Shown here: one piece after another, positions 1 to 22,182 of the stretch
How the letters are laid out: each line of letters opens with the position of its first letter
Position numbering within the stretch: the stretch's first letter is position 1
Virus record (IMG/VR): IMGVR_UViG_3300013286_000064
Location: 1 to 22,475 of that record
Length of the DNA: 22,475 bases
Source: a virus
Direction: 5' to 3' (one strand)
Made by a program: the position numbers and the translations under genes
The notes under the pieces: generated by a model
Told to the model about the DNA's origin: nothing
The model's database searches: none
Seen by the model: the letters and a program-made list of their open reading frames with translations, nothing else

Positions 1-108
1 AAACTGTAGTTCTGCACTTTTAGGCAATACTGCATCTAATGTGCCAGGATCATAACAATCTCCAACAATAACTTCTTGTAGTGGATCCCAATTTGTCCAA
101 ATGCTCAT
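1..108 (-). CDS. Amidinotransferase-like protein, N-terminal fragment
   Basis: Only the first 36 codons lie in the window; the gene runs off the left edge. The start is ATG at 108, with an AAGGAAG ribosome site about 7 bases upstream. The N-terminus reads MSIWTNWDPLQEVIVGD. The WDPL-x-E-V-IVG pattern is the opening motif of the glycine/inosamine amidinotransferase family, which moves an amidino group from arginine to an amine acceptor. The catalytic Cys/His/Asp residues of that family would lie outside the window, so activity cannot be judged. It is the last visible member of the minus-strand run of oxygenase genes, and 40 bases separate it from the next gene upstream. Other pentein-fold enzymes share a similar N-terminus, so the exact substrate is unknown. 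Confidence 0.7.
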   Translation of the reverse strand, partial: MSIWTNWDPLQEVIVGDCYDPGTLDAVLPKSAELQF

Positions 109-148
109 ATGTTTAACTTCCTTTTTATATAATCTTGATAATTTTTCA

Positions 149-724
149 TTACTTCTTTATACCTACATTGAATGCCAATGCATATCTGCTTTCATTTGAG
201 TATACAGGAGTAGTACCATGATGCATGTATGATTTAAAAATTATTACTTGCCCTTCTTTGGGTTTTATAATATGCACACGCTCAGATTCTGGGTTAAAAC
301 TTTTATAGTGATCGTGCTGTGCTATGTTATCTAAATCATGCTGAGGACTATTAAAATAGAACATTCCGCCTTGCTGAGACTGTTTGATAAAAATTACTCC
401 AGATACAAATTTTGGAAGATGAGTATGCCCTGGTATATATTCTTTCTGCTGATATTCAGTAACCCAACTATCTTCAAGCACAAGTCCTTTTATATTGGCG
501 GCTTCTGCATACTGATTTACTAATTGTTCTACACGCTTTCGTGTTTCTGGACAATAGTCTAAAATGTTCATGCAAATAAATTTATTGTTGACAAACTCCT
601 CAGCATCAATTACTAACTCGTCAACAGGGTTATTGTTTATATAATCTAATAATTCTGGTTGACAAATGTTCCAGTCAGGAAAATCTGTATCTAAAATTAA
701 ATTAGGAAATATTTGTCTTATCAT
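149..724 (-). CDS. Putative 2OG-Fe(II) oxygenase (PF13759-like)
   Basis: A 191-aa protein resembling the phage 2-oxoglutarate/Fe(II) oxygenase family PF13759/TIGR02466. The core reads H100-T-H102 followed by SGVIFI at 108-113, then GGMFYFNSP at 119-127. The distal part has GQVIIF (158-163) with H168-H169 and R180. In this family the first pair and the distal His bind iron and the late Arg binds 2-oxoglutarate; assigning them to these residues is my inference. The start is ATG at 724, which overlaps the TGA stop of the upstream gene as ATGA and so suggests translational coupling. The substrate is unknown. Length is normal for the family and no defect is visible. Confidence 0.8.
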   Translation of the reverse strand: MIRQIFPNLILDTDFPDWNICQPELLDYINNNPVDELVIDAEEFVNNKFICMNILDYCPETRKRVEQLVNQYAEAANIKGLVLEDSWVTEYQQKEYIPGHTHLPKFVSGVIFIKQSQQGGMFYFNSPQHDLDNIAQHDHYKSFNPESERVHIIKPKEGQVIIFKSYMHHGTTPVYSNESRYALAFNVGIKK

Positions 725-1140
725 TTTTCTATAATCTCTTTTAGGTAATCTTCAGCCCAGTGAGTATAATAGCTGGTCTTCTTCAATTTATCCCTAGCAG
801 ATTGTAGATCATCTCTCCATTGACACAATATAAAGTTACATCGGCCGTTGTTAGTTTGTACACCATTTATAAATGTATCTTTGTCTTTGTGATCGGGCAG
901 AAACACCATCTCTGGATATAGATTATTGTATTCTTTCGCTCTATCTTCTAGTTCTTCAATTGAATAGTGATCTGGTAATTTATATATTATTAGATCGAAT
1001 GCCCAAGGAGGCGGATCTATATCACTTCCGTCAGTGTCAATAATTGATACTTCGCTGTTCTTGGCAAAAGGACAGACAGGTAACCCGCCTAATTCCGGGC
1101 GTGGCTCACTTATATGTTTTACCCAATAATCAATATCCAT
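721..1140 (-). CDS. Conserved-looking 139-aa protein with CPFA motif (DUF1415-like?)
   Basis: A 139-aa soluble protein with no signal peptide or membrane segment. Near the N-terminus it has W6-x-KHISEPRPELGGLPVCPFAK (residues 6-27). The GLPVCPFA part recalls the GL-x-LCPFA motif of DUF1415 proteins, but the rest is not clearly that family. The C-terminal half (CNFILCQWRDDLQ, then a charged helix) has no catalytic motif I know. It overlaps the SDR gene upstream by 11 bases and the PF13759-like oxygenase downstream by 4, so the three are probably co-translated. Function unknown; redox or metal use of the two Cys residues is only a possibility. Confidence 0.6.
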   Translation of the reverse strand: MDIDYWVKHISEPRPELGGLPVCPFAKNSEVSIIDTDGSDIDPPPWAFDLIIYKLPDHYSIEELEDRAKEYNNLYPEMVFLPDHKDKDTFINGVQTNNGRCNFILCQWRDDLQSARDKLKKTSYYTHWAEDYLKEIIEK

Positions 1141-1741
1141 TTAATACCGTGAAACTAGAAATAAAGTTTCTTCCATTTATACTTTGCAATGCAAGATCTA
1201 CAGTCTTAACTAAATCATCTACTGTGATAATACTATTAGTTTTAAGTATTTGCTTGTACAATTCTGCACCGTTCTGATCTGCTGTGTCGTATGGATTATA
1301 AAAATTAGTTTGCACTACTCCAGGCATAACAACAATGCTTTTGCATTTACTGCCACTGTGATTAATTTCCCAGCTGGTCTTATTTATAGTGTACTTTTCC
1401 TCTCCGTATAGGGTCAACCAAGGAAAACTGTTAGGGATATCTGCTAGAGGTTCTGCGGCCATACTGCTGGTATTAATAATAAAATGATTGCTATGCCAAT
1501 GTTGCTGTTGCCATAATTTCATTAGCTCAACTTGTGCGTAATGATGGTAAGCATTATTAATAAACAAATCACAATCTTTAGTGTCCTCTACAATAAGGTC
1601 TTGATTAATTTTATTGCTAATATCAAACCCAGTATCCTTGCTGAAGCCTTTAACATTACAACCTTTATTTGTAAAATAATCAAATAGACCTTTACCTATG
1701 CCGCTGGTATGTCCTGTGATAGCAACTGACTTAAACTCCAT
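1130..1741 (-). CDS. Short-chain dehydrogenase/reductase (SDR)
   Basis: A 203-aa NAD(P)-dependent SDR-family protein. The dinucleotide motif T9-G-H-T-S-G-I-G16 follows the first strand. N62-N63-A64 matches the NNAG structural motif. The catalytic Ser is S92 or S93 in INTSSMAAE. Two overlapping YxxxK motifs follow, Y112-K116 and Y117-K121, so the catalytic Tyr/Lys pair is ambiguous. PG at about 140 follows as in classical SDRs. It is shorter than the usual 250 aa, lacking part of the C-terminal substrate loop. The start is ATG at 1741 with GGAG 6 bases upstream, inside the end of the preceding gene (11-base overlap). Likely oxidises or reduces an alcohol/ketone on the substrate that the neighbouring oxygenases act on (inference). 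Confidence 0.85.
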   Translation of the reverse strand: MEFKSVAITGHTSGIGKGLFDYFTNKGCNVKGFSKDTGFDISNKINQDLIVEDTKDCDLFINNAYHHYAQVELMKLWQQQHWHSNHFIINTSSMAAEPLADIPNSFPWLTLYGEEKYTINKTSWEINHSGSKCKSIVVMPGVVQTNFYNPYDTADQNGAELYKQILKTNSIITVDDLVKTVDLALQSINGRNFISSFTVLNGY

Positions 1742-3062
1742 TCCAGTCTCCGTTCATATGCCAAGTTGGACGTTTAATATCATCAGATATATTTCCTGTC
1801 ATTATTAAAGTAGCATCAGGTACATGTTTCTTTAGCTTGTCTAGTAACAATCGTTCGTTGTATATCCTGTGCTTCAATGGAACAAATGGGGCGACTGGGT
1901 CATAATTAAAAATATGACTAAGGTGTATGATTGTACTAGGTACATTGTCTACCCATGTACTCACAGGCAATAGTGTGTTAAGCACAAGATCCTGGTGATG
2001 AAATTCAAATTTAACTTTGCTGATCATATCAGTCCACATACGAGCATTTACGGTTTGTTCGCTACCGGTCATAGTGATCATATGATCACCGCCCGAGCTT
2101 AGAAACTCCTTACGACTATTCACATAGTCTTGAACAAACTCTATATAGTTTTGTTTTCCATCCCAATCTAGGGTTATTCGAAACATGCACTCAAGAGCAA
2201 ACAAATTATAGTCAACAAATTTAACTGTAGTATTTTCATCGTATCCGTAGTACAGCAAGTACTCATACCATTGTAAACCGCTGGCTTGTATAACCAATTG
2301 CTTCACAGGTCCTTTGAAGTCTACAGCAACAAACTGTTCTGTGTTGTAGGGGTAAAACAATGCTTGGCCTGCTACACTATACTTTCCGTATAGATACGAG
2401 CTCTTAGGAATAAAAGCCGGCTCATAGTTAGGATAGTAGTAGATCTTGTTGTTTCTAAATTGTTCCGGAAACACTTCCACAAGTTCGCCTGCGGCTAACG
2501 CTACACTGATAATGTTCCAACCGTGCCATTTGTGCTTGTACTCTTTTAACCTATGACCAGGCTTGACCCACACAGGGGTGTAGTCATCATGCACATTGTC
2601 CACACTACGCATTGGTTCTATTTGAAAATGTGGTGAGTAGTAGGCAAACTCTCCCACTACGGGAGAATCTAACTCTGTATACTTGTTAAGATTGATAATG
2701 TAGCATTGGTCGTGTAGTTCGTAGTAACCGTCATCTCTGTCTGGGATATGTCCCATCAAGAAAAACTTATAACCGCCATATACTAACTTTTCAACTTCGT
2801 TAAAGAACTCATCACCGTTGACAAACTCTGTGCCTGTGCTTAGTACTACTGCGTGTGTATAATCTTTAGCGGCTTCTTGAAGCATTAGATCTTCGTCTAG
2901 GCCTTGTATAACATTGAATCCGCTATCAATAATTTTACCTAGGACAAAGTCGCTGAGGTTTTTCATTAGTTCAGCAGTCCAAGCAGTTTGGCAGGAATGA
3001 ATCCTATCTAGGAAGATAAAGACAATGTCGTCAGATCCCGCAGGTGTGGTAAATTTAAGCAT
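1731..3062 (-). CDS. Large unrecognised protein (443 aa), possibly two domains
   Basis: I do not recognise this gene by name. The N-terminal half (to about residue 150) looks like an alpha/beta domain, with VVLSTGTEF near residue 73-81 and FLMGHIPDRDDGYYELHDQ near 100-118. The middle has VIQASGLQWYEYLLYYGY followed by VKFVDYN (about 260-290), which loosely recalls a Rossmann-type methyltransferase core. This is too weak to assign. No signal peptide or membrane segment is seen. The start is ATG at 3062. No good Shine-Dalgarno precedes it, but a possible promoter does (TTGCGA, 16 bases, TATAAT on the minus strand at about 3069-3096). It overlaps its neighbours by 8 and 11 bases and lies between oxygenases and an SDR, so a role in the same pathway is likely. 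Confidence 0.6.
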   Translation of the reverse strand: MLKFTTPAGSDDIVFIFLDRIHSCQTAWTAELMKNLSDFVLGKIIDSGFNVIQGLDEDLMLQEAAKDYTHAVVLSTGTEFVNGDEFFNEVEKLVYGGYKFFLMGHIPDRDDGYYELHDQCYIINLNKYTELDSPVVGEFAYYSPHFQIEPMRSVDNVHDDYTPVWVKPGHRLKEYKHKWHGWNIISVALAAGELVEVFPEQFRNNKIYYYPNYEPAFIPKSSYLYGKYSVAGQALFYPYNTEQFVAVDFKGPVKQLVIQASGLQWYEYLLYYGYDENTTVKFVDYNLFALECMFRITLDWDGKQNYIEFVQDYVNSRKEFLSSGGDHMITMTGSEQTVNARMWTDMISKVKFEFHHQDLVLNTLLPVSTWVDNVPSTIIHLSHIFNYDPVAPFVPLKHRIYNERLLLDKLKKHVPDATLIMTGNISDDIKRPTWHMNGDWNGV

Positions 3063-3699
3063 ACTGTTTATTATAACATCTTACGAGCATTTCGCAAAAC
3101 TCTTTCTTTCTATTACCTAAAATGATATTAGCAATCATATGTACTCTAGGTTTGGCGCTTCTATTAAAAACAGCATGATCTTTGCTTATGTTTAACATAA
3201 ACATTCTACCTTCACGCCACGGAACACGCTTATCTTCAATTTCCATGTCGCAAAACATAGGATGGATAATTGCAAGATTAATTGGCAATATAGAATCTAA
3301 AGGATCAATGCCATCGGGTAGTTGTCCATCATTGTGCCAATCTATATGCCCGCCCGGAGCAAGACGCATGAAGCGTATTCTAGTATATCGCTCTGCAGGA
3401 AATTGGTGTTTCCAAAAGTCTGTAATTACTGGACATCTATATGATAATTCTGTATATTGATATGGTGCATGATATTCATCGTGTCCGTAGTTGTCTGCTG
3501 TGTGTGTTCTGTCTATACCTAACCCGTGTAGACAACAGCTTGCCCATCCATCACTGGAGCTATCCCTATATTCTTGATAGAACGGTTCTGCTTCTAACGC
3601 CTGTTGCTTCCAAACATCAACATTGAACGGAATGTCTAATTCAAGCCAAGGAATAGATGTGTTCTTTAGTATTGTACGGGCTTGATTTACGATATCCAT
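3055..3699 (-). CDS. Aspartyl/asparaginyl beta-hydroxylase-like 2OG-Fe(II) oxygenase
   Basis: A 214-aa protein with the core of the aspartyl/asparaginyl beta-hydroxylase fold (PF05118-like). RIRFMRLAPGG (107-117) is followed by H118 and W121-H122-N-D124. It then has WREGRMFMLN (161-170), with DHAVFN at 174-179 and R185-V-H187. By family pattern, H122 (with D124) and H175 bind Fe(II) and R185 binds the 2-oxoglutarate carboxylate; this is inferred. The start is ATG at 3699, with GAGG about 11 bases upstream. It overlaps the next oxygenase upstream by 13 bases and the unknown 443-aa gene by 8. The substrate could be a protein side chain or a small molecule. Confidence 0.8.
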   Translation of the reverse strand: MDIVNQARTILKNTSIPWLELDIPFNVDVWKQQALEAEPFYQEYRDSSSDGWASCCLHGLGIDRTHTADNYGHDEYHAPYQYTELSYRCPVITDFWKHQFPAERYTRIRFMRLAPGGHIDWHNDGQLPDGIDPLDSILPINLAIIHPMFCDMEIEDKRVPWREGRMFMLNISKDHAVFNRSAKPRVHMIANIILGNRKKEFCEMLVRCYNKQYA

Positions 3700-4244
3700 T
3701 TTTTAAATACCTCTAATGCTTGTTCCATAGTAAGACCATCTTCTGGTTTAGATTCTAAACTAATATCACAACTCACACACCATCTAGGACCTTGAGTATG
3801 GTTTGTAATGTTGTGCGGCACACCTGTTTGCACAATGCTAGGAAATTTAATACTATGAGAGTAAACATGAGTTACCTGTTGTGGCTTATAAAGAGTATAC
3901 GGAGTTCCTGCTTGTGTTTCTACTTGTTCAGTTATATCAATGTTATCATTAAGTTTATACCAATGCATTAGACTGCCAGCGCCGCCAAATATAAAATTAA
4001 TACATGCACGATCACCTATTGCATATCCATCTATATGTATACCACATTGATCTCCGGGTGGAGTATAGAAAATCAACGGCGGGTATGTCATTACTAAATT
4101 ATGATTAGATAGCCACTGTGTAAATTCGTTAGAAACATTTTTAGGATCAGCAAACCATATTTCAGGTTCTACGATTGTTTGATTCAATATAGAATAGTCT
4201 GTAAGAGGACCAAAAGGAACTGTTAGATCAACAGCATAGATCAT
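3687..4244 (-). CDS. Cupin-type 2OG-Fe(II) oxygenase-like protein
   Basis: A 185-aa protein with a readable facial triad: PPGDQCGIHID puts H70 and D72 in an HxD motif after a Pro-Gly turn. ACINFIFGGAGS (80-91) is the following strand pair, and QTGVPHNITN gives a distal H144. R154 in GPRWCVS is the likely 2OG-binding Arg. The order and spacing (HxD, about 72 residues, H, 10 residues, R) fit double-stranded beta-helix dioxygenases. The assignment is by motif only and no exact family is recognised. The start is ATG at 4244, overlapping the upstream stop as ATGA. Confidence 0.72.
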   Translation of the reverse strand: MIYAVDLTVPFGPLTDYSILNQTIVEPEIWFADPKNVSNEFTQWLSNHNLVMTYPPLIFYTPPGDQCGIHIDGYAIGDRACINFIFGGAGSLMHWYKLNDNIDITEQVETQAGTPYTLYKPQQVTHVYSHSIKFPSIVQTGVPHNITNHTQGPRWCVSCDISLESKPEDGLTMEQALEVFKKWIS

Positions 4245-4774
4245 TTTGCATAGCCCAAAAAGTTAAACAAGAACTTTGGCTCTAATCCCATATTCATTCC
4301 GCCATGCCACTGTTGCCAATCGTCCCATTCAAATACATCGCCCTGTTCTCTATCGTAGCAAACTTCGCCTTCTAACAGAAATACCTGACCAAACGATGGT
4401 TTGTTGATATGGCAAGTAAAGCGTTTGATTATTCCTTTTTCTAACATCTCTGTTTCGTTGTCAGTAATATCGTAATGCCAGGGTACAACGAATCCCGGAC
4501 GAACGCTTGTGATCCAGCAGCCAATAGTAACCACGTTAGCAAACGTAGCAAATTTATCAATGATATCCTGTGGGCAATCATAATCAAACCAACCAACTGC
4601 TTTATTATCTTCGTAGCCTGCACGTTGCCATAGTTTACGCAATGCCGCAACCTTAGGGTTATGATGTATATCATCAGTCTGATCGTTGCCCCTAAAGCGA
4701 CCTTCTTGTGTACTAAGTTGTTCAATTAATGCAGGCCAATTGATCAAGCTAGATGAGTTTCCTATAAATTTCAT
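4241..4774 (-). CDS. 2OG-Fe(II) oxygenase-like protein, tandem copy A
   Basis: A 177-aa protein that is clearly paralogous to the gene just upstream (4771-5313). Both begin with a short N-terminal Ile-Gly segment and then LWQ-x-AGY near residue 50. Both carry S-x-RPG followed by H-x-D (here H100-Y-D102), RFT-x-H (118-122), a beta pair ending in VF, and W-x-x-WHGG with H157. The C-terminus is LFNFLGYAK. H100, D102 and H157 are the presumed iron ligands. The pattern resembles aspartyl/asparaginyl hydroxylase-like phage proteins, but no named family is certain. ATGA overlaps join it to the neighbours on both sides, which suggests coupled translation. Confidence 0.75.
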   Translation of the reverse strand: MKFIGNSSSLINWPALIEQLSTQEGRFRGNDQTDDIHHNPKVAALRKLWQRAGYEDNKAVGWFDYDCPQDIIDKFATFANVVTIGCWITSVRPGFVVPWHYDITDNETEMLEKGIIKRFTCHINKPSFGQVFLLEGEVCYDREQGDVFEWDDWQQWHGGMNMGLEPKFLFNFLGYAK

Positions 4775-5313
4775 ATCTTAACTCCTATGAAGTTAAACAG
4801 CCATTTCTTCTTAAAGCCACAGTTGCCGCCTGCATGCCAAGCTCTATGATTAGACCACTGATGTGTATATCCAGATTCTTGATTTGAAAACACTTGATTG
4901 TCAACAATAAACACATGCCCTGGTTCTGATATTCCCATGTGAGTAGTAAATCTAGTAAGCTCGCCTAGCTTAAGATGTTCTTCTTCAGCGTCATCAATAT
5001 CCCAATGGTACGGCGCATATCGTCCCGGACGTATAGAACTAACCCATGCACGTATGCATTTGTATCCTAGCCAACTACTATAATCTTCTATGATCTTAGC
5101 ATCAAAATGTTTTCCTGGATAGTAATTGATCCATTCTACTGTACCTGCTTTATCGTATCCGGCATGTTGCCATAACTGTATGATCTCATCAAATCTACCA
5201 TCTGTGTTTTGATAAAAATCAACACCATAAGTTCTAACATCGCCCTGTTTCAGGTCTAGTGTCTGTATAAGTTCATACCAGTTAATATTAGATCTGCCTA
5301 TCAATTTAGTCAT
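4771..5313 (-). CDS. 2OG-Fe(II) oxygenase-like protein, tandem copy B
   Basis: A 180-aa paralogue of the gene at 4241-4774. Shared landmarks are LWQHAGYD (47-54), VSSIRPGRYAPYH (91-103), the HxD motif H103-W-D105, RFTTH (121-125), the strand GHVFIVDN (132-139) and W159-H160-A-G-G, ending LFNFIG. H103, D105 and H160 probably bind iron. The two copies are similar in motif order and length but clearly diverged in sequence, so they probably act on different positions or substrates (inference). The start is ATG at 5313 and overlaps the preceding gene by 8 bases. The TGA stop overlaps the next start. Confidence 0.75.
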   Translation of the reverse strand: MTKLIGRSNINWYELIQTLDLKQGDVRTYGVDFYQNTDGRFDEIIQLWQHAGYDKAGTVEWINYYPGKHFDAKIIEDYSSWLGYKCIRAWVSSIRPGRYAPYHWDIDDAEEEHLKLGELTRFTTHMGISEPGHVFIVDNQVFSNQESGYTHQWSNHRAWHAGGNCGFKKKWLFNFIGVKI

Positions 5314-6016
5314 CTATTGCAAAGCCTTCTGGTAGTTTGCCACGCAACGAATCAATTGCATCTGGTTTTAATTTAAGAGAAAAGCCATTATTAGTTACAG
5401 TAAACTTAGACATCATACGTAATTTATCAAGTGCATTTAACACAGGACTTAGTACAGCATCAAACCTGTAACGAGATTCTTCTTTGTCGTCTAATGTCGA
5501 TCTAACTGAGACGGGTATAAAGGTGCCGTCGTCTCCATCCTTTAATAACATTCTTACTACTAATTGTGCTCGTACTCCCCTGCCAAAGTTAGCGGCAGTA
5601 TGTTTATTCCTTGCCTGCATAAGATACCAATGTCCATCTTTTACTAAATCATGTAATTCGTTCTTTTCTAAATCAATAATATAGCTGTCAGTTCCTGATA
5701 TGTTAAGATGATACCTGTCATCTATATCAGCGTGTGACTGGTAGCATTTACCCTCATCTAACAAAATAATACGTGCTTCGCCGTGCGGTACAGTCAAGGA
5801 CTTCAGTATGTGATACCATATGGTATTTTTGTATTCTTCCTTAATAGTCCAAGGATCGTAAAAGAAATCGCCAGTAGGTTCATTAATGGCCAAACGGAAC
5901 TCGTCAGATGGTAAATTGTTTTTAGCAATCTGTATACTTTCTATATCAACTGAGAAGTTAGTTTTGGCGAGCATGATATATTTAACACCATTAAATGCAC
6001 ACATAAATATTTCCAT
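5306..6016 (-). CDS. 2OG-Fe(II) oxygenase-like protein (aspartyl hydroxylase-like)
   Basis: A 236-aa protein and the first gene of the left minus-strand run. ARIILLDEGKCYQSH leads to the HxD motif H95-A-D97, followed by RYHLNISG. The distal region GHWYLMQARNKHTAANF contains H139, and R149 in GVRAQLVVR is the likely 2OG-binding Arg. This order matches the aspartyl/asparaginyl hydroxylase fold. A C-terminal extension of about 75 residues, KFTVTNNGFSLKLKP onward, has no recognised motif. Start choice is open. ATG 6016 has no clear ribosome site; in-frame ATG codons follow at residues 5 and 15, and the residue-5 codon has GGA about 7 bases upstream. Expressed from the divergent region at 6017-6057. 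Confidence 0.72.
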   Translation of the reverse strand: MEIFMCAFNGVKYIMLAKTNFSVDIESIQIAKNNLPSDEFRLAINEPTGDFFYDPWTIKEEYKNTIWYHILKSLTVPHGEARIILLDEGKCYQSHADIDDRYHLNISGTDSYIIDLEKNELHDLVKDGHWYLMQARNKHTAANFGRGVRAQLVVRMLLKDGDDGTFIPVSVRSTLDDKEESRYRFDAVLSPVLNALDKLRMMSKFTVTNNGFSLKLKPDAIDSLRGKLPEGFAIDD

Positions 6017-6057
6017 GAAACTGGATTATAATCCACTTTATTATATAGAGTTAACAC
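6017..6057. promoter_or_regulatory. Divergent AT-rich regulatory region with 14-bp palindrome
   Basis: This is the only space between the left minus-strand run and the plus-strand radical SAM unit. It holds the perfect palindrome TGGATTATAATCCA at 6022-6035. TATAAT occurs on the plus strand at 6027-6032 and on the minus strand at 6045-6040, so -10 elements for both directions can be drawn. No convincing -35 box accompanies either. A near-match to the T4-type late promoter (CATAAATA, consensus TATAAATA) lies at 6002-6009 on the plus strand. Promoter use is inferred from the divergent layout. Confidence 0.45.
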
Positions 6058-7311
6058 ATGCCACATAAATCAACAACGTTCTGCATGCATCCGTTTACAG
6101 GATTGGCAAGCCGCGAAGACGGAGCAGTTAAAGTGTGTTGCCGTAGCCGCCCTATTGGCAATATACAAGAAGAAACTATAGAACAAATTTGGAATAACGA
6201 TACAATGCAACGTATCCGATATCAAGTACTAAACAGCGAGCGTCCTCCAGAATGTGCGCCCTGCTTTAACCTAGAAGACCAGGGAGTAGAAAGTCTGCGT
6301 CAAAGACACATCAAAGGTGAGATACCTGAAGCACGGATTAATTTGTATCCTAATACACCTTTACAAGAAATAATGCCGTTTGAATTTCCTACTATGGAAA
6401 TTAAACTCAATAATCTTTGTAATCTTAAATGCCGTATGTGCAATCCCACAGACAGCACAAGCTGGAATGATTGGAGTGAGGTTGAGGAATTTTATGACAA
6501 AGAAAAGAACTATATTGCAGGCAATGTTCGCAAACTCAATTTAGTTAGAAAACCATACTTGGACAAGTTTGAGGATAATCCTAATTGGTGGGATAGCTTT
6601 AAAAAACTATTACCTTACTTCCGCCGCGTAGAGTTTGCTGGCGGTGAGCCCTTAATGGATCCACAACACTTTCAAATACTAGATATGTTAAAGCCTTACG
6701 GGCAACAAATAGAAATCAAATATGCTACTAATGGCACAACATTAGGAATTACAAAAGGAAGAACTATACATGAATATTGGCCACATTTTAGATCAGTTGC
6801 CGTTAATGTCAGCATTGATGGCATTGGTGATGTTTACGAGTACATACGTGGTAACGCTAACTTCTCTGAGGTTGTGGAGAATGTTAAAACAATACAGGCG
6901 ATCCCAAACGTCAGCAGAGTTGTTGGAGCCGTTGCTGTCCAAGTAAGCAATGTACTAATATTAGATAAGATGATAGAATATTTCCTAGATGATCTAGGCA
7001 TTGTGTTTTATACCAATATGGTTAATTACCCTAACGTGCTATCTATACAAGTGCTACCTAACGAATTAAAGTCCATTGCGATTAAACGGCTCATTGCTGT
7101 CAAATTGCGTGTTCCGGAATTTAAACACGTTAAAGCCAACCCTATTTTATTAGACATTACCAACAAGCAGATCGACGGAGTGATTAACTTTATTACTTCA
7201 AAAAATACCACACATCTATGGAGCGAGTGTGTAGAGTTTAATCGTAGGTTAGATATAACTCGTAATCAAAGTTTTACAGATGTAACTCCAGAGTTTATAG
7301 ATTATAAATGA
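6058..7311 (+). CDS. Radical SAM protein with N-terminal Cys cluster (twitch-type)
   Basis: A 417-aa radical SAM enzyme. The radical SAM [4Fe-4S] motif is C121-N-L-K-C125-R-M-C128, and the SAM-contacting motif is AGGEP at 194-198. Unlike classical SPASM enzymes, the extra cluster ligands sit in front: C9 (FCMHPF), C27-C28 (VKVCC) and C66-A-P-C69, enough for an auxiliary [4Fe-4S] cluster. Proteins of this layout are usually called twitch-domain radical SAM proteins. The C-terminus R-N-Q-S-F-T-D-V-T-P-E-F matches a tail shared with the radical SAM genes at 9033 and 15771. The start is ATG at 6058 with GAG 7 bases upstream, and the stop overlaps the next start as ATGA. The substrate is unknown. 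Confidence 0.88.
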   Translation: MPHKSTTFCMHPFTGLASREDGAVKVCCRSRPIGNIQEETIEQIWNNDTMQRIRYQVLNSERPPECAPCFNLEDQGVESLRQRHIKGEIPEARINLYPNTPLQEIMPFEFPTMEIKLNNLCNLKCRMCNPTDSTSWNDWSEVEEFYDKEKNYIAGNVRKLNLVRKPYLDKFEDNPNWWDSFKKLLPYFRRVEFAGGEPLMDPQHFQILDMLKPYGQQIEIKYATNGTTLGITKGRTIHEYWPHFRSVAVNVSIDGIGDVYEYIRGNANFSEVVENVKTIQAIPNVSRVVGAVAVQVSNVLILDKMIEYFLDDLGIVFYTNMVNYPNVLSIQVLPNELKSIAIKRLIAVKLRVPEFKHVKANPILLDITNKQIDGVINFITSKNTTHLWSECVEFNRRLDITRNQSFTDVTPEFIDYK

Positions 7312-8162
7312 GACAGTTTCTACTTACACTCGGTGACAAACAATCTAAGACTATTGTGTTTGATATACTGTCAACATCTATTGCGAATCGGTGGGCGGAT
7401 GAAATTGCTAAAGGTTATCCGCTGTACGAACAAGATAGGTTTAAAGGTTGGCCAGAAAGTCCAAGGACAGAAGCATACTATTATTACCAATTAAAAGAGC
7501 AAGTATCTATAGTCAATAACTATCAAGCAAATTTAATTCCTAATATACTTCATATGTTTACGCAGGATACATTAAACGTATTGCATAAACACTTTGAGGA
7601 CTTGCGGGGATCTATTGATGCAGGCACTGAGTTTTACAACAATGCACCGGACTATGTGAAATCTGCTGTAGATAAATTTAATGTATTGATACACGAGCTA
7701 GAACATTACATGCGACATTTTGGATATCCAGAATTAGTCGGAACCTACAAGGATAGACCCAGGATTGAATTGTTGTCCGAGGACTACAAGCAGTTTACAT
7801 TTAAATGGAAATTTGGTTATATGTATATTAATTACTGCGAAGTAGGTAAACCTTTACTTGATGTGTTTAAGGACAATGATCATCTCGTAGGGCACGATAA
7901 CATACGCCCATTGACATATTATAGCGCAGACTTTACAATTAAGTTTGGCCCAGATACTACTGAAGAAGTTTACCAAAAACGGTTAACACAATTTAACGAA
8001 TGGTATGCAAAACAAAATTTTAACTTTGATCAGTTATCGTTGGGTATGATTCCTGTAGCAAAATTAAACTTAAAAGACAGTAACCTATTAGGAATATCAT
8101 CTGATGGTATAATATCATTGTTATCCCAATATCAGAATATCAAATCAACATGCTTAAAATAA
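7308..8162 (+). CDS. Unknown 284-aa protein between two radical SAM genes
   Basis: I do not recognise this family. It is soluble, aromatic-rich (YYYYQL at 57-62; FTFKWKFGYMYINYCEVGKPLL in the middle) and has no signal peptide. Residues 124-134 (FNVLIHELEHY) contain H129-E-L-E-H133, which formally matches the HExxH zinc-protease motif, but the helix looks like an ordinary amphipathic one and no third ligand is evident. The start overlaps the upstream stop as ATGA and the end overlaps the next radical SAM gene by 13 bases, so all three are probably translated together. It may be a substrate, scaffold or partner of the flanking radical SAM enzymes; this is inference from position only. Confidence 0.6.
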   Translation: MRQFLLTLGDKQSKTIVFDILSTSIANRWADEIAKGYPLYEQDRFKGWPESPRTEAYYYYQLKEQVSIVNNYQANLIPNILHMFTQDTLNVLHKHFEDLRGSIDAGTEFYNNAPDYVKSAVDKFNVLIHELEHYMRHFGYPELVGTYKDRPRIELLSEDYKQFTFKWKFGYMYINYCEVGKPLLDVFKDNDHLVGHDNIRPLTYYSADFTIKFGPDTTEEVYQKRLTQFNEWYAKQNFNFDQLSLGMIPVAKLNLKDSNLLGISSDGIISLLSQYQNIKSTCLK

Positions 8163-13065: not shown

Positions 13066-13655
13066 CTTGTTCCTATAATCATCCAACGTGTATACAATGG
13101 CAATTCTAACTCCCCTGCCCACAGCACATTTATATGGCTTTGTTTTTTAAATTCTTCTAAATTCTTTGCTGTTCTAATGTGCTCAGGTATATCATAGTTA
13201 TTGCTTTGTAAGACCAGCATACTATCTTTAGGGGTGTATGTTAACCAACGATCGTATTCCTCTTGAGTAAGATGCTCGCAACTTGTGTTTATGATAATGT
13301 CGGCACTCATATGCATTGGATGACTTATATCCACTATGCTTGCACGGAATCTGCCCTGCATCTCCTCTAGCTTGTTCATTGTTTGTGCAATGGGCTTACA
13401 AGTAGGGTCAATATCGTAGCTGGTGATATGTGTAATTGGAATATTGCTTTGAAACAACATACTGGCCAATGTTCCTACCCAACCTGCACATATCTCAACA
13501 CTAGATCCTGCATGCACATGCTCATCTAGATTATCAATTAGCCATTCCTTGCTTTTGAGTTGACCAGACCAGAATGCATCCATCGTGCGTATAGGATCCG
13601 GGCTTTGACGGATAGCTTGCATCCAATGATGTAGATGTTCTGTATCAATTAGCAT
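13062..13655 (-). CDS. Class I SAM-dependent methyltransferase-like protein
   Basis: A 197-aa protein. V53-E-I-C-A-G-W-V-G61 resembles motif I of Rossmann methyltransferases, with the glycine-rich turn relaxed. SYDIDP at 79-84 fits the acidic residue that binds the SAM ribose, and ADIIINTSCEHL (about 118-129) fits motif IV. The target could be a sugar, amino acid or nucleobase; no target-recognition domain is present and the protein is small. Overlaps are 11 bases with the upstream SGNH gene and 4 with the downstream one. The start is ATG at 13655. Confidence 0.7.
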   Translation of the reverse strand: MLIDTEHLHHWMQAIRQSPDPIRTMDAFWSGQLKSKEWLIDNLDEHVHAGSSVEICAGWVGTLASMLFQSNIPITHITSYDIDPTCKPIAQTMNKLEEMQGRFRASIVDISHPMHMSADIIINTSCEHLTQEEYDRWLTYTPKDSMLVLQSNNYDIPEHIRTAKNLEEFKKQSHINVLWAGELELPLYTRWMIIGTR

Positions 13656-14526
13656 TTATAAAATCGTATATTTCTTTAGCAATTATTGATTGCCCTTTGT
13701 GTGTAGGATGCACACAATTAGTAATGTATTCACTAGGTTTGGTAAGTTGAGAATAGTGGGTCCACCAACCTCCGCCACCTAAATGACTCATGCCTTCTAA
13801 TTCTAATAGATAGTGCAAGAAAGACTTATGTCCTTTAGGGTACAAGAAATTATTCCAATTTATCTTATCAATTAGCTTTTTATGCTCTCTACCCAATATA
13901 GGAATGTTACTTCCGAGCGTTTTACTCAACCAATCTTTGTTTGCCCTAGCATCAAAACCATTTGTTATGATTAGTTTATAATTATCCGCTTGGCAATATG
14001 TTTGTGCGTCAAGTATGTTTAGTATCAGTTCCCCGGCCATGAACTCATTAGAGTAGATATTCTTTTCGTATGCCTGCCATAGATCTGGGTGTGTGGCTCC
14101 AGGGTCGTGTGGGTTTGGCCACATAGTTTGGAAAGCATAGTGTTCTTCTGCACCGTAATTTTTCTTAACAAAATCAAATCTCTCTAGCCCTGTTAACATA
14201 TAAACTACTATAACTTCGTCTGCAAGTGATAGGTCAACTCGTGTGTTAAGATATATTTGTTTTAATGCTCCCCTGTTACCAATGCCAGCTTGTCCAAAAT
14301 TTACAGGTATGTAGTCATCTAGATATGTTTGGCATATTTGATTGACCCAACTACCCTGATATTGTTCTGCTATTAGTTTTTTATCGTTAGTATAGATAGG
14401 AATATTGTATTCGTGCTTTTTCCAAGTTGCATCTGTGTATGCACCAAGCCCCTGCGTAAAACTATCCCCAAGGCCAATAATAACCTTATTACCTTTCTTT
14501 AATTTAGGAACTGCAAAATTATACAT
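13645..14526 (-). CDS. SGNH-hydrolase-like protein with Asn in place of catalytic Asp
   Basis: A 293-aa protein. Block I is G18-L-G-D21-S22-F-T-Q-G-L-G, a textbook GDS motif with Ser22 as nucleophile. NFGQAGIGNRG (about 76-86) supplies the block II Gly and block III Asn. Block V reads T-N270-C-V-H273-P-T-H-K-G: His is present but the usual Asp three residues before it is Asn270. This could weaken hydrolysis or shift the enzyme to transfer chemistry. The start is ATG at 14526, with 8 and 11 base overlaps to its neighbours. It probably belongs to the same pathway as the GCS-type SGNH gene at 12103. Confidence 0.75.
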   Translation of the reverse strand: MYNFAVPKLKKGNKVIIGLGDSFTQGLGAYTDATWKKHEYNIPIYTNDKKLIAEQYQGSWVNQICQTYLDDYIPVNFGQAGIGNRGALKQIYLNTRVDLSLADEVIVVYMLTGLERFDFVKKNYGAEEHYAFQTMWPNPHDPGATHPDLWQAYEKNIYSNEFMAGELILNILDAQTYCQADNYKLIITNGFDARANKDWLSKTLGSNIPILGREHKKLIDKINWNNFLYPKGHKSFLHYLLELEGMSHLGGGGWWTHYSQLTKPSEYITNCVHPTHKGQSIIAKEIYDFINAN

Positions 14527-15796
14527 TAAAATATTCCTTACAATAATTTACAAGCTCAGTAGAAGCCATAGGTCTTTTATGTTTAGATTCGTGAAACATT
14601 TTGTAGTTATGTTCTAATATTTCGCTCATGCTTTCAAACCAACTTAGTTTATCCTCTATCGAATCTATTCTCTTCAGCTCTGTAATTATAGCATCTATTC
14701 TTTCAAAAGTCGATAAGTTATCGTAGGTTTCATTAATGAACCCATCAAATGTTCTGTAGCCCATATCACGCATTGCTTGTAAACTACCCTTGCCTCCTAA
14801 TATAATAAACGGATGCATACATGCTATAGGCTTGAAGGTTTTTTCACTAATGAATAAAGCATTGTCATTGTCTGCAAATATAGGTTCGCTTACTACTGTT
14901 ACCCAAGTATCTTTATATATCTGTTCCATGATTCTATCAATGTAGAAGCCATCGTCAAATTGGACATTTGATTTGCCATATACTTCTAAAGGTAGCACGG
15001 TTCTTGCTTCCTGTAGAAGTTCTTCGTTGGGTAATTTATTGTCTAAGTAGGCTTTGTTATCTTTGTAGTCGTTCATACTAACTAACCCAATATCCAATAT
15101 GCCTGCTTCAAACATTTTTATATAAAACCATATACGGTGAGATCTCAATCTCTTTTGTAAACAATTAAATGTTTTGATACTGTTAGATTTTTTATATCTT
15201 ATGTTCTCTTCCCAATTGGGGTAGATGTTATATTTTTCACTTATAAACCTAACGTAAGATTCAAAGTGTGTGAATGGTATAGTTTTAATCTTGTTAGTCT
15301 TATTACCGGCCCACTGTGCATAATCCTCTGCTGTTTTCCAGTTGCCTGTAACATATACAACTGCTTCTGGAGGAATAGTATACTTGACACAACTTTCGTG
15401 AAACCATTGCCATAGGTACGGTGTATGGTATCCTTCCAAGCATTGATCTAATAACAGCACAGCCCGACCTTCTTGGAGATCTCTTAGGTATGTAGGATTT
15501 AACCATTCAAATAGATTCTTTTTACCTCTAGGAGTTGTCCAGTTATCTGGATGATGTCTTACCCCTGATGCAATAATATAAGGGCTAGGTTGCTCACCAA
15601 ACTTAAAGTTTTGCTTAGTGTATAGTAACACGTCTTGCTCTACATGATCGTATGTAAGAGTAACTGTTGCTAATATGCAGGGATGAAAGCGGGTTAGCCC
15701 CGATGGATTAAGATCTGGGCAGTCTATAAAGTTTTCTAGACTATCTTCTTGATTCCGTTCAAATGCAAAATTAAGAAGAAAGGGCTTTGCAGTCAA
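14519..15796 (-). CDS. Glycosyltransferase-like protein (EKTFKPIA motif)
   Basis: The C-terminal third carries the motif ISEKTFKPIACMHPFIILGGKGSL, then MRDMGYRTFDGFI and NETYD. This resembles the nucleotide-sugar half of GT-B glycosyltransferases such as exostosin- or fucosyltransferase-like proteins, where Glu-Lys and a Gly/Ala-rich turn bind the donor. The same motif occurs in the gene at 19375. The start is uncertain. An ATG at 15913 gives 464 aa but overlaps the upstream gene by 143 bases with low-information sequence. TTG at 15796 gives 425 aa and a 26-base overlap, so I use it. Neither has a clear ribosome site. Activity is inferred from the motif only. Confidence 0.6.
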   Translation of the reverse strand: MTAKPFLLNFAFERNQEDSLENFIDCPDLNPSGLTRFHPCILATVTLTYDHVEQDVLLYTKQNFKFGEQPSPYIIASGVRHHPDNWTTPRGKKNLFEWLNPTYLRDLQEGRAVLLLDQCLEGYHTPYLWQWFHESCVKYTIPPEAVVYVTGNWKTAEDYAQWAGNKTNKIKTIPFTHFESYVRFISEKYNIYPNWEENIRYKKSNSIKTFNCLQKRLRSHRIWFYIKMFEAGILDIGLVSMNDYKDNKAYLDNKLPNEELLQEARTVLPLEVYGKSNVQFDDGFYIDRIMEQIYKDTWVTVVSEPIFADNDNALFISEKTFKPIACMHPFIILGGKGSLQAMRDMGYRTFDGFINETYDNLSTFERIDAIITELKRIDSIEDKLSWFESMSEILEHNYKMFHESKHKRPMASTELVNYCKEYFNV

Positions 15797-17111
15797 TATA
15801 GAATTGTTCGAGTTCTGGAAAGGTTTTGACGAAGTCCGTATTACGTCGGAGATCGTATTCAGTAAACCAATTATAGAAGTCTCTACGACCCTCAATAATT
15901 TTTGTATCTTCATAATTTGTATTTCTCATATATTCAACAACGCGGCTAAATTTCTCACGTTCAAGTTCTGAGAACTTGTTACTGTGCATATACTCTAATG
16001 CTATCTCCATGTATGGTATAAACTTATCTTTAGGCAATAGATTCATATCGTACTGCAATGGTTCTTTTAGATAGGGAGTATCAAATCTAATGCGTTGTTT
16101 GCGGCTGAACCAACTATTGTATTTCTTACGCCATTCTAGTATCTTAAGTAACAATGAACTAAAGTTTGTAACAGTTAAGATATTGAATGTACACATGAAT
16201 GTAATTGGTTGTTTTGTTTTAGTTAGGTACGTGTCTAAGTTTTTTTCCCATACTGCTAAGTCTAGGCCTGTGCGTAGATATTCAGCAGGTTCCCCCCAGG
16301 TATCAATACTGGTAAACAATTTAAAGTGTTTGATCTTACCTTCAGCAAGCAACGCATTGACCTTAGTAACCAATCGTTCCATTAGTACCGGTTTAACTCC
16401 AAGGTTACTGTTGATATTAATCTCTAGATTGGGCTTAGGATTAACTGATAGGTCATCCAACAGTTTCCATGTACTAGATTGCAGTAATGGCTCGCCTCCT
16501 GTAATGCGTAGGATGTTTAGAGTCTTACTGACTTCGGGCCACCAGCGCCACCATGCTTCAACATATGGATTAGTTTCTTCTTCGTATATCTTAAGGTAGT
16601 CAATATCATTGCGATGATTCTTAACCATTGTATAAGGACCAAAGTCTTTGATCTCTTTGTAGTATGCAGAGCTGTGCTTTGGATGACAGTAACCGCATTT
16701 GAAGTTACACTCATTGCCAAAGCTAATTTCAATGTATTCTGGATTGACAGGAGCCAATGGTGCGGCTTTGATATGGGCTAATCTTTCTTCTGTATAGATG
16801 CTGGCGTTACGCTCGTGTCTATCACTGATGTGATCACCTTCTAGTGATTCAATGTTCCAACAGTATTGACAGCCGCTAGGCTTTTTACCATCCAGCATCT
16901 CTTGACGTTCTAGTGTCTTTAGTGGGGTATTATGCAGGACGCTAGGATCTGCTAGGTCTAACGGAATATCGTGAGGACGCGGGTGGTAACAACTGTGTGT
17001 TTGGCCACTCTGTAGGTATATAGTAGTATGATGCCATTTAGCCAAGCAGAATGTAGGACTTATCTCGTTGACTATTGGTATTATTTTGTGTATGCGACTT
17101 ATTTCACTCAA
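15771..17111 (-). CDS. Radical SAM protein with N-terminal Cys cluster, TTG start
   Basis: A 446-aa twitch-type radical SAM protein. Front ligands are C22, C41 and C81-Q-Y-C84; H43 stands where paralogues have a second adjacent Cys. The cluster motif is C135-N-F-K-C139-G-Y-C142, and TGGEP is at 204-208. The C-terminus LRRNTDFVKTFPELEQFY carries the tail signature seen in the genes at 6058 and 9033. The start codon is TTG at 17111, with GAGGG six bases upstream. No ATG precedes the essential N-terminal cysteines, so the TTG is well supported. The ribosome site lies in a potential hairpin (17116-17165), which may control translation. Confidence 0.87.
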   Translation of the reverse strand: MSEISRIHKIIPIVNEISPTFCLAKWHHTTIYLQSGQTHSCYHPRPHDIPLDLADPSVLHNTPLKTLERQEMLDGKKPSGCQYCWNIESLEGDHISDRHERNASIYTEERLAHIKAAPLAPVNPEYIEISFGNECNFKCGYCHPKHSSAYYKEIKDFGPYTMVKNHRNDIDYLKIYEEETNPYVEAWWRWWPEVSKTLNILRITGGEPLLQSSTWKLLDDLSVNPKPNLEININSNLGVKPVLMERLVTKVNALLAEGKIKHFKLFTSIDTWGEPAEYLRTGLDLAVWEKNLDTYLTKTKQPITFMCTFNILTVTNFSSLLLKILEWRKKYNSWFSRKQRIRFDTPYLKEPLQYDMNLLPKDKFIPYMEIALEYMHSNKFSELEREKFSRVVEYMRNTNYEDTKIIEGRRDFYNWFTEYDLRRNTDFVKTFPELEQFYIDCKALSS

Positions 17112-17115
17112 GAGA

Positions 17116-17165: not shown

Positions 17166-17173
17166 AGCTGGGG

Positions 17174-17293: not shown

Positions 17294-17303
17294 TGTGGTC
17301 TCC

Positions 17304-17555: not shown

Positions 17556-17556
17556 A

Positions 17557-18252: not shown

Positions 18253-18264
18253 AATCGTGTCCTC

Positions 18265-18378: not shown

Positions 18379-18390
18379 AATATATGTAGA

Positions 18391-18609: not shown

Positions 18610-18628
18610 AATAGTTCCTTATCTATAT

Positions 18629-18657
18629 ATTATATTATCTTTCGTTGCGATTGTCAA
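18629..18657 (-). promoter_or_regulatory. Consensus sigma70-type promoter inside a 3' coding end
   Basis: On the minus strand, TTGACA (18657-18652) and TATAAT (18634-18629) are exact consensus boxes with the optimal 17-base spacer. The -35 box and spacer lie within the last codons of the oxygenase gene at 18635-19378. Transcription would start about 18622 and read the 72-aa gene, SleB and the genes after it. Exact matching boxes at optimal spacing are rare by chance in AT-rich DNA but not impossible. Confidence 0.75.
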
Positions 18658-19378
18658 ACGGTGTCTTGGTTTTATCATCCCACCAGTATAAACTTCTATG
18701 TGGAGTACTTATAGGAGTAGAGTTACTGGCATAATAAAATAGTCTCAGGTTTTCACGCTGTTGATCTGCAGGGCAGGCTAATGGTTGAGGGTAGCCATGT
18801 ATCAGTCGTTCGTCATAGTCCCATATGATTAGTCTGTTGGGCATAGGATATGTTTTAACCAGGCACTCTATACGTTCAAAGTCCCAAAACTCCAATGCTC
18901 CATTCCATTCTTCGTCCCATGTAGGATTTAAGTATAGGATAGCACTACAACTGCGATTTAGATGAAGCTGTTCGTTCCAGTTAAAGTCTGTGTGTAGATT
19001 TAAAAAGTGGCCTTGACTACAAGTAGAAAGGCCTGCACCTACCAGCTTAGGGTCACTGATGATTCTATCTTTGCCAGTTAGGGCTTCTAGCCAATTTAAG
19101 AACACACCACTGTTAAAACAATGTGTCAGTGTCTGTAGTATAGGCGCATTTGAAAACAGCTTACACTCACGCATTAGGCTACCCTTGCGTGTAAACTTAG
19201 TCCACTGGTGATCGGGTATACATGCTATCTCAGCTTGTGCTTCCACAAATATATCATTGGGTACAAAGTCATCTATTACCAAATAGGGCACGGGCTCTTT
19301 CTGCAGGTAATCTAGGCTGTATTCTTTGGGATTGTATTTGAGATGCAGATTATTAAAATAATTGTACAGGTCTATCAT
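18635..19378 (-). CDS. Prolyl 4-hydroxylase-like 2OG-Fe(II) oxygenase
   Basis: A 247-aa protein of the P4Hc/2OG-FeII_Oxy_3 type. VPYLVIDDFVPNDIF (30-44) is the usual opening. The iron motif is H129-T-D131 in NLHTDFNW. SAILYLNPTWDEEWNGALEFWD (145-166) is the classical strand pair of this family. The distal ligand is H194 in RLIHGYPQPL, and R208 or R212 in QQRENLRLFYYAS is the 2OG-binding Arg. It hydroxylates a carbon on a protein or sugar/amino-acid substrate that is not identifiable. The start is ATG at 19378, overlapping the upstream glycosyltransferase-like gene by ATGA. Its 3' end carries a promoter for the following genes. Confidence 0.87.
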   Translation of the reverse strand: MIDLYNYFNNLHLKYNPKEYSLDYLQKEPVPYLVIDDFVPNDIFVEAQAEIACIPDHQWTKFTRKGSLMRECKLFSNAPILQTLTHCFNSGVFLNWLEALTGKDRIISDPKLVGAGLSTCSQGHFLNLHTDFNWNEQLHLNRSCSAILYLNPTWDEEWNGALEFWDFERIECLVKTYPMPNRLIIWDYDERLIHGYPQPLACPADQQRENLRLFYYASNSTPISTPHRSLYWWDDKTKTPFDNRNER

Positions 19379-20553
19379 TTCTGCGTCTCTCGTTTAAATG
19401 CGTTTAGCCATAAAAACTCTGGAAAGTTTGATTCAGTCCATTCTGTGCGGCCCTGTAAATCTTTGAATGCCTGAAGGTTGAATTCTGCAATAGAGCGGCA
19501 TTCTGCTATCATACTGCTGTATTCTTCTTTGGGCATATTGCATATCCTATCAATCTCTGAAATTACGGCCTTGTGTCGTTCTTGGTTATCAGTGATGCTA
19601 TCATAAGTTTCATCTATCAAACCGTGATAGGTCTTAAAGCCCATTGACTGTATAGCCTTTAGTGATCCTGGAACGCTGTACATGATAAAGGGTCTAGCAC
19701 AGGCTATGGCTTTAAAGGTTTTTTCTGTTAGGAACACGGGTTGGTATTCTGGGCTATAGGGCAGGTGGCGGCTATATTCATTAGGATTAAATTTGCTTTC
19801 AACTATTAGATTTATATCTGCTTGTTGAATCGCTGTGTATGTTGCCTTATGAAACTTTATATCGACGCTTGCATCTAGATCGTAGGGCACTCCTTTGAGC
19901 CAACTGGCCAATGGCTCTTGCTCTGGGTCTATGCCCTGTCTGTTTAGATCTCGTGCTAGATGTAGTAGACTGTATTGTGTGATAGTACCATAGGGTTGAA
20001 TGTTGTGAAAACTGTAGACAAAGTCTTTTATCAAATCTCGATTGACTAAATCCGCAAACAACCCCAAGCGCCAGGGCCTGTAATTGCGACTTAGACAGCA
20101 AAACTTGTGAGTAGACTCCTGTGGTTCTGGAATATCTGTAAGCACTATGCTTTGATAGGTAACGGCTGTGTTAATTCCCACAATGCCCAATCGTGCCAGG
20201 CCTGCTCTAAGAAACTCAGCATGTATATCATCTACTACTATAACATACACCCTATCCAGTGGCAGATCCCTTAATTTTATCAGTAATGCTAATTCATTAA
20301 CAAATTTAGAGTCAAACGTTTCGTTGGTATTTTCATAGACAAATCGAGTAGTCCTATCCAATTTAAAATGTAGCCAATTTTCTTCCTCTAGACAATTGGT
20401 CATTTGTACATCGTTGTGCAAACAATCATAGACCTGATAGTAGTATATGGTTTTTGGTTTGAACTCACAGTAGCGTAAAGGCCTAATGCTGTCCAATTTA
20501 AACTTACTGTGCGGGAGTCTGCCCGTTTTAGAATATATTTTTGGTAGTTCCAT
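19375..20553 (-). CDS. Glycosyltransferase-like protein (EKTFKAIA motif)
   Basis: A 392-aa protein sharing its C-terminal region with the gene at 14519: VFLTEKTFKAIACARPFIMY, SVPGSLKAIQSMGFKTYHGL, then IDETYDSITD and an Ile-rich helix. This looks like the donor-binding half of a GT-B glycosyltransferase. The N-terminal half is unlike its paralogue, with SHKFCCLSRNYRPWRLGLFADLV (about 153-176) as the clearest element. In such proteins that half binds the acceptor, so the two likely use different acceptors (inference). The ATG at 20553 lies just before the divergent promoter region; no strong ribosome site or own promoter is evident. Confidence 0.6.
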   Translation of the reverse strand: MELPKIYSKTGRLPHSKFKLDSIRPLRYCEFKPKTIYYYQVYDCLHNDVQMTNCLEEENWLHFKLDRTTRFVYENTNETFDSKFVNELALLIKLRDLPLDRVYVIVVDDIHAEFLRAGLARLGIVGINTAVTYQSIVLTDIPEPQESTHKFCCLSRNYRPWRLGLFADLVNRDLIKDFVYSFHNIQPYGTITQYSLLHLARDLNRQGIDPEQEPLASWLKGVPYDLDASVDIKFHKATYTAIQQADINLIVESKFNPNEYSRHLPYSPEYQPVFLTEKTFKAIACARPFIMYSVPGSLKAIQSMGFKTYHGLIDETYDSITDNQERHKAVISEIDRICNMPKEEYSSMIAECRSIAEFNLQAFKDLQGRTEWTESNFPEFLWLNAFKRETQK

Positions 20554-22118: not shown

Positions 22119-22120
22119 AG

Positions 22121-22149: not shown

Positions 22150-22182
22150 ATATCTAGTTTAACAACTTTATAGAAAGACCTT

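Follow-up and report, generated by a model that had tools for sequence, protein, structure and literature searches.

The window analysed here is the whole IMG/VR record IMGVR_UViG_3300013286_000064 (22475 bases), a fragment of a larger viral genome cut at both ends. Most of it, positions 1-20553, is an island encoding seven predicted oxygenases, five radical S-adenosylmethionine (SAM) proteins, a QueC-fold ATPase, short-chain dehydrogenase-like and methyltransferase-like proteins, two SGNH-like proteins, glycosyltransferase (GT)-like proteins and the start of an amidinotransferase. Seven families of the island form a core that recurs across related viral loci, and in relatives island genes occupy the end of a tail-fibre/GT operon that exists in filled and empty versions. 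We tentatively favour, at slightly under an even chance, the interpretation that the window belongs to a hypervariable tailoring island carried by large phages, T4-like and possibly also other ones. This island would be an expansion of the fibre/GT operon that encodes a cytoplasmic pathway decorating tail fibres with a heavily modified sugar-like group.

Recurrent core and operon context of the island

The 28 main genes of the window were annotated with Pfam, PHROGs and NCBIfam; they lie mostly on the minus strand, the majority of neighbours overlap, and the listing of open reading frames (ORFs) has them packed and overlapping across 149-20553. With g15 as query 182 related stretches were retrieved, with g13 96, and core frequencies were counted in 59 non-redundant viral loci of at least 15 kb each. 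The families g09, g10, g12, g13, g14, g15 and g17 are present in 83-100% of these loci, usually in the orders g12'-g17-g14-g13 and C20-g15-g10-g12. A preliminary description of the window had proposed that its genes form one tailoring system. The comparison of gene order among relatives, a test set beforehand, speaks for this proposal: the genes are not scattered independently, and the linked core co-occurs in most non-redundant relatives in an operon-like order (g17-g14-g13, g15-g10-g12). Compared with the closest relatives, the ratio of nonsynonymous to synonymous substitution rates (dN/dS) is about 0.03-0.15 for nearly all estimable genes, with many dS values near or at saturation, and nearly all island genes are under purifying selection, i.e., functional. 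Because purifying selection is joined by recurrent co-occurrence, the island is more than a chance assembly.

The individual genes differ in their closest relatives. The g14 protein shares 93% identity with L092 and 52% with L085; g10-g12 share 62-73% with L092 and about 90% with L085; g18 is 98% identical to its L085 counterpart at a dS of 0.17, and the genes flanking it show dS of 0.7-2. The position of g15 also varies among relatives. Such mosaic identity and the shifting place of g15 show that the island has been reshuffled gene by gene, as cassettes.

The surroundings of the island were read from relatives, which were sampled as metagenomic contigs, many of them incomplete. The nearest relative, the 61-kb record G001 (L004/L092), carries the window genes in synteny; a carbamoyltransferase, the DxD-bearing GT-like C18a and C18b, the GT-like GTx1 and GTx2, and structural genes stand where the island of G001 ends on the far side. 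The same gene order is found in the T4-like records G006 and G023, together with fibre genes, g12-g17-g14 and a UDP-sugar dehydrogenase (5e-18) that lies inside the fibre operon of both; tail identity in the relatives is given by a PF07484 collar match (9.5e-15) plus PHROG tail-fibre assignments. An independent search anchored on C18, the DxD-bearing GT-like family, yielded 74 non-redundant loci, with DxD-bearing GTx genes in 68 of them and same-strand tail-fibre genes upstream in 53. Enough downstream sequence was available in 59 of the 74. The operon ends after C18 at an opposite-strand gene in 28/59 (empty site), island genes continue past C18 in 23/59 (filled site), and 8/59 are mixed. Filled sites include the window families g12, g13, g14, g17, g19, g20, g04, g05, g24 and g25; the g19, g20, g24 and g25 families occupy the fibre-operon slot in L230, L206 and L265, with g25-g24 there in L230 and L206. 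That one and the same fibre/GT operon is found both with and without island genes behind it is new here, and it allows a direct comparison of phages with and without the island. The preliminary description had left the target of the pathway open, and the genes beside the island in relatives indicate tail fibres with their glycosyltransferases. No fibre or capsid gene lies in the window; the relatives show tail fibres, GTs and variable cargo, and some of them are T4-like, with T4 gp23 in 6/28 records and a portal in 5 records searched.

Enzymes of the island

The seven proteins g01, g05-g09 and g24, all encoded on the minus strand, are classed as 2-oxoglutarate (2OG)-Fe(II) oxygenases, and their 2-oxoglutarate-dependent activity is predicted. 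Pfam matches were obtained for g01 (149..724; PF13759, 7.4e-18; also phrog_81, 1.4e-33), for the Asp/Asn beta-hydroxylase-like g05 (3055..3699; PF05118, 2.2e-15) and for g24 (18635..19378; PF13640, 2e-13). The g05 residues H122, D124 and H175 are conserved in 48 sequences, and g05 stands next to g04 in 22 cases. The oxygenase-like g06 (3687..4244; H70, D72, H144 and R154 invariant in 8 sequences) and g07 (4241..4774; H100, D102 and H157 invariant in 50 sequences) have no Pfam match, and g08 (4771..5313; H103, D105 and H160, 46 sequences), a paralogue of g07, has no significant one. The core oxygenase g09 (5306..6016), found in 52/59 loci, keeps H95, D97, H139, R149 and R155 invariant in 66 sequences and matches PF05118 weakly, below cut-off (E 0.037). 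The iron triads that the preliminary description had read in the oxygenases were upheld for the five families g05-g09, whose homologue alignments of 8-66 sequences keep HxD and the distal H without exception or at 98% or more; g01 reads HxH, not HxD, despite its PF13759 match, and g24 has HTD at 129 with too few homologues to gauge the conservation of its triad.

All five radical SAM proteins, assigned via Pfam or NCBIfam, carry CxxxCxxC. Three exceed the 170-bit cut-off of NF033640 (N-terminal twitch radical SAM), namely the core proteins g10 (6058..7311, plus strand; 327 bits; 57/59 loci) and g13 (9033..10385, minus; 413 bits; 57/59 loci) and g20 (15771..17111, minus; 300 bits), whose family often adjoins C18b within the tail-fibre operon of relatives. 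The remaining core proteins, g12 (8150..9070, plus; 5e-17) and g14 (10327..11445, minus; 1.2e-9), match PF04055 and both occur in 59/59 loci; a second scan for g14 relatives gained little. Each of the records of 27 relatives holds 7-17 radical SAM domains. The dense island with seven oxygenases and five radical SAM proteins, as first described, was thus borne out by the family searches, the triad alignments and the cysteine motif, and most genes belong to the families initially named.

The core protein g15 (11378..12106, minus; 49/59 loci) had been described as a QueC-like PP-loop ATPase, which the fold of its model (predicted local distance difference test score, pLDDT, 94.5) bears out: QueC 3bl5 is the best match (Z 14.8, 3.9 A over 179 residues), other PP-loop enzymes (TilS/MesJ) score close behind (13.8), and Cap9 (13.8) and QatC (12.7) come next. 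The pyrophosphate loop SGGxDS is found in 32/35 sequences of the family (SGGADS in the window protein), and four conserved cysteines (C204/C225/C228/C231), a putative Zn site, are spaced C-x20-CxxCxxC versus the canonical C(x)8CxxCxxC of QueC, close to the QatC variant (PMC13329287). The substrate motifs of the preQ0 synthase QueC, i.e., YxQxHxxE, VPxRN and YPDC (PMC13329287), are each present in 0/35 sequences. Accordingly placed beside the QueC family (QueC, QatC and Cap9; PMC13329287, PMC13279940), g15 shares the fold, the SGGxDS loop and the four cysteines, but it differs in the cysteine spacing, lacks the canonical 7-carboxy-7-deazaguanine (CDG) motifs and has motifs of its own, HxRMWKTRPWQ and VTRNP. 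The retention of loop and cysteines together with the loss of the substrate motifs makes it probable that g15 works like a QueC-type ATP-dependent carboxylate-activating enzyme on another substrate.

The window protein does not reach the curated cut-off of PF06508, which one 256-aa ORF in the relative G026 passes (23.8 bits vs 22), and a sequence-profile search of g15 against PDB gave no usable match. Among 84,980 bacterial and archaeal species genomes only four relatives of g15 were found, all distant. A QueC-fold subfamily that is largely phage-specific and without any canonical substrate motif is new here. A bacterial origin of g15 was considered and rejected on account of these four distant matches, of which L182 and perhaps L180 resemble phage contigs in metagenome-assembled genomes. 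In L183, from a Bdellovibrionia genome, g14-, g15-, g13- and B12-radical-SAM-like genes are clustered at 6057-13916 and apparently chromosomal.

Known phage clusters and the possible role of the island

Neither megablast of the window nor tblastn of g15, g17, g19 and C18b against 50,697 phage records gave a match. The preliminary description called the pathway undescribed and held that no known pathway has this set of genes; phage islands of the same kind are published (PMC2853527, PMC7029224, PMC7824862), and the function of all of them is unproven. Phage radical SAM clusters have been on record without function since 2010 (PMC2853527), when Timms et al. reported that five radical SAM genes and an amidinotransferase are clustered as a swappable unit in the Campylobacter phages CP220 and CPt10 and proposed a metabolic boost. 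That module of about 10 kb also holds nucleotide-sugar-transferase-like genes, its radical SAM proteins include g14/g12-like ones, and its amidinotransferase is 28% identical to the G001 orthologue (E 3e-28); the island likewise combines several radical SAM genes and an amidinotransferase in one swappable block. Neither an oxygenase nor a QueC-fold protein is annotated in the examined part of the CP220 module, unlike in the island. The host recognition cluster (HRC) of pelagimyophages and cyanomyophages, for which a change of the host O-chain was proposed (PMC7029224), resembles the islands of the relatives as a hypervariable stretch of T4-like phages: it encodes tail fibres, GT8 enzymes and a UDP-glucose dehydrogenase, and radical SAM cassettes have been added to it. 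What the island has beyond the HRC is a core of seven defined families that includes a QueC-fold enzyme, many oxygenases, and filled and empty sites. For the jumbo cyanophage S-SSM6a, the part of the report available to us describes a phage-borne cluster with a halogenase, carbamoyltransferases, several 2OG oxygenases and a methylase; that part mentions neither a radical SAM core nor a QueC-fold enzyme, both of which the island has (PMC7824862). The cultured Pelagibacter phage Mosig EXVC030M has Asp/Asn hydroxylases, radical SAM, a carbamoyltransferase, a sugar aminotransferase of UDP-sugar type, an epimerase and a g17-like protein after its tail-fibre genes, as well as nitroreductases and a desaturase, and no g15 or g13 homologue in the stretch examined. 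The island joins features of the HRC, CP220 and S-SSM6a clusters.

In the pathway that we propose, the island enzymes would act in the host cytoplasm, where radical SAM proteins and 2OG-Fe(II) oxygenases would functionalise unactivated C-H bonds. By amide or nitrile chemistry, the g15 ATPase would activate a carboxylate with ATP and couple this carboxylate to an amine, and further groups would come from genes for amidino, carbamoyl, methyl, acyl and amino transfer in the wider island. Glycosyltransferases would then place what has been made, most likely a rare sugar or a unit resembling one, on tail fibres, and cassette swaps would alter the decoration. The first 36 codons of the amidinotransferase, described as an amidinotransferase start, lie at 1..108 on the minus strand, where the gene runs off the record (translation begins MSIWTNWDPLQEVIVGDCYDPGTL); its full orthologue in G001 confirms the assignment by matching the solved structures of StrB1 (1.4e-21, the closest), SxtG (2e-12) and HsvA. 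StrB1 is an aminocyclitol enzyme. Carbamoyltransferase genes occur in 8/28 records, and a class III aminotransferase is also among the island genes of relatives. Sugar-like chemistry serving the fibres is suggested by the neighbourhood, the GT-like genes, the UDP-sugar dehydrogenase, the aminocyclitol-type amidinotransferase, the carbamoyltransferase and the aminotransferase. It is in this sense that we infer the action of the enzymes in one pathway, the sugar-like product, the fibre target and every single reaction. A bolder version, which we consider quite doubtful, is that a modular pathway puts an unprecedented radical-tailored guanidino-, carbamoyl- or halogen-bearing sugar on the fibres, with a swappable identity for adsorption or escape, and that g15 represents a new class of QueC-fold ligase joining a radical-SAM-made carboxylate to an amine. 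Should fibre decoration hold true, phages would make exotic chemistry of their own for decorating virions, and new enzymes of the radical SAM, oxygenase, halogenase and QueC-fold kinds could be drawn from their islands.

Several points weigh against this interpretation. The link to fibres rests on relatives, as no tail-fibre gene lies in the window, and in G014 the main core at 148-180 kb is far from the fibre operon at 9-26 kb. The GT assignments of g19, g25, C18 and GTx rest on motifs, and no complete nucleotide-sugar pathway was found in the window. The core frequencies of g13 and g15 are inflated by their use as locus queries. SPASM/twitch radical SAM proteins and Asp/Asn hydroxylases act on peptides more often than on sugars. 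Moreover, G011 and G008 carry the island without a detected T4 capsid or portal; since some large island records lack gp23 and portal, a second phage lineage among the island carriers is possible.

Remodelling of the host surface polysaccharide by the island (lipopolysaccharide core or O-chain), which would block co-infecting phages, is an unlikely but serious alternative. Published work proposes it for clusters that combine tail fibres and GT8 enzymes with a UDP-glucose dehydrogenase and with radical SAM cassettes (PMC7029224), and the relatives of the window hold GT-like genes and a UDP-sugar dehydrogenase. No flippase-, polymerase- or Gtr-like polytopic protein was seen, as 0/1086 ORFs between the core genes have at least four transmembrane-like segments; this count suggests that the island proteins are soluble and that a complete polysaccharide export route is not encoded. 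Lipopolysaccharide-core glycosyltransferases are soluble and a host exporter could serve, and the lack of membrane proteins is therefore not decisive.

Rather unlikely, too, is direct modification of the fibre protein, with oxygenases hydroxylating it and twitch/SPASM radical SAM proteins altering its side chains, with or without later glycosylation. Asp/Asn-hydroxylase-like families and twitch/SPASM radical SAM proteins often modify proteins or peptides, the island adjoins fibre genes, and g04 has the lysyl hydroxylase/GT LH3 among its best fold matches; the amidinotransferase, carbamoyltransferase, UDP-sugar dehydrogenase and aminotransferase, however, indicate small-molecule or sugar chemistry, and collagen-like repeats were absent from the fetched ORFs. 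A cluster for ribosomally synthesized and post-translationally modified peptides was rejected, since no short ORF conserved across the islands was found as a precursor peptide gene near the radical SAM genes. One 60-aa family with a 'CPA'-like C-terminal end was seen near g07/g08 oxygenases in four loci (L014:8806-8988, L022:16331-16513, L049:7519-7701 and L053:15219-15395), and it is possibly a peptide substrate in a few phages.

That the island is a secondary-metabolite cluster whose soluble, bioactive product would target the host or competitors is improbable. Halogenases in 13/28 island records and the class III aminotransferase, carbamoyltransferase and amidinotransferase would suit it, and it is one option given by Iyer et al. 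for the cyanophage cluster in the available part of their report (PMC7824862), but no nonribosomal peptide synthetase, polyketide synthase, precursor peptide or exporter was seen, and the junction with the fibre operon would be left unexplained. A nucleobase pathway, with g15 and the radical SAM proteins supplying phage DNA or tRNA with a 7-deazaguanine-type base or else marking proteins by deazaguanylation, is hardly credible: the QueC fold and Zn-type cysteines of g15, a QueD-like 6-pyruvoyltetrahydropterin synthase (PTPS) gene in 13/28 records and FolE in 7/28 speak for it, but all three canonical QueC substrate motifs are missing in 35/35 g15 sequences, a tRNA-guanine transglycosylase-family gene is found in 0/28 records, and QueD lies outside the island near IscA and long tail-protein genes, with no QueE/QueC neighbours seen.

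Other genes of the window and its relatives

The GT-like g19 (14519..15913, minus) and g25 (19375..20553, minus) share a C-terminal EKTF...PF motif that is conserved in their alignment, and g03 (1130..1741, minus; 12/59 loci) has the GxxxGIG motif of a short-chain dehydrogenase-like protein with PF00106 below cut-off (E 0.002). The SGNH-hydrolase-like g16 (12103..13122, minus) is recognised by GCSL...DGRHP motifs without a significant Pfam match, and the GDSL/SGNH-like g18 (13645..14526, minus) has a GDSF motif and PF00657 below cut-off (E 0.005). For these five genes the initially named families retain their motifs, with Pfam matches absent or below cut-off; PDB-profile searches gave no support for g19 and g25. 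The core protein g17 (13062..13655, minus; 53/59 loci) has class-I-methyltransferase-like motifs (GGWxG...DIDP, conserved in 22 sequences) and no Pfam or PDB match. In g04 (1731..3062, minus; model pLDDT 87), a GT-A/nucleotidyltransferase-like N-terminal domain is followed by a second domain; residues 8-227 resemble GT-A-type folds, at best with a Z of 9.8 and 3.5 A across some 157 residues. Foldseek gave LH3 with low TM-scores, and the label is kept at GT-A-like; Pfam and PDB-sequence searches of g04 gave no match. It possibly stands outside the two GT-like proteins of the preliminary description. The conserved phage protein g02 (721..1140, minus; phrog_10325, 5.8e-26) and g11 (7308..8162, plus), which is inserted between g10 and g12 and has no family match, each occur in 8/59 loci.

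Genes for IscA-type proteins are present in 14/28 records, and IscU and IscA adjoin the islands of G014 and L281. The phage IscU (PF01592, 5.7e-52) lies at L176:7364-8242 (G014, 147 kb), and IscU/IscA stand at the island edge or beside tail-fibre genes, also in L281; plausibly, the Isc proteins load the many Fe-S enzymes of the island. Genes of the Trp-type flavin-dependent halogenase family reach up to five per phage record and lie close together in G011 (32568-46920), where they stand beside g01-like oxygenases, and in G008 (185129-191092). A few kb separate the QueD-like PTPS genes L289:11048-11497, L290:7048-7533 and L292:8012-8494 from IscA, from long tail-protein genes and from a gene that by eye resembles UvdE; these QueD-like genes are unlinked to the island. 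Eight loci, among them L018:18712-18930 and L024:2327-2545, encode small proteins that by eye look like translation initiation factor IF-1, close to an AbrB-like ORF. A tRNA gene close to the island edge is suggested by spurious ORFs with '..VGFEPT..' in eight loci, including L007:4572, L026:6524 and L046:3681. In the window, G001 and G014, a CwlJ/SleB-type cell-wall hydrolase stands beside the island (g22, window 17557-18252; PF07486, 2e-15). The genes g26-g28 (window 20615-22473, plus strand) lead out of the island, and g26 and g27 share 88-91% identity with their G001 counterparts at a dN/dS of about 0.08.

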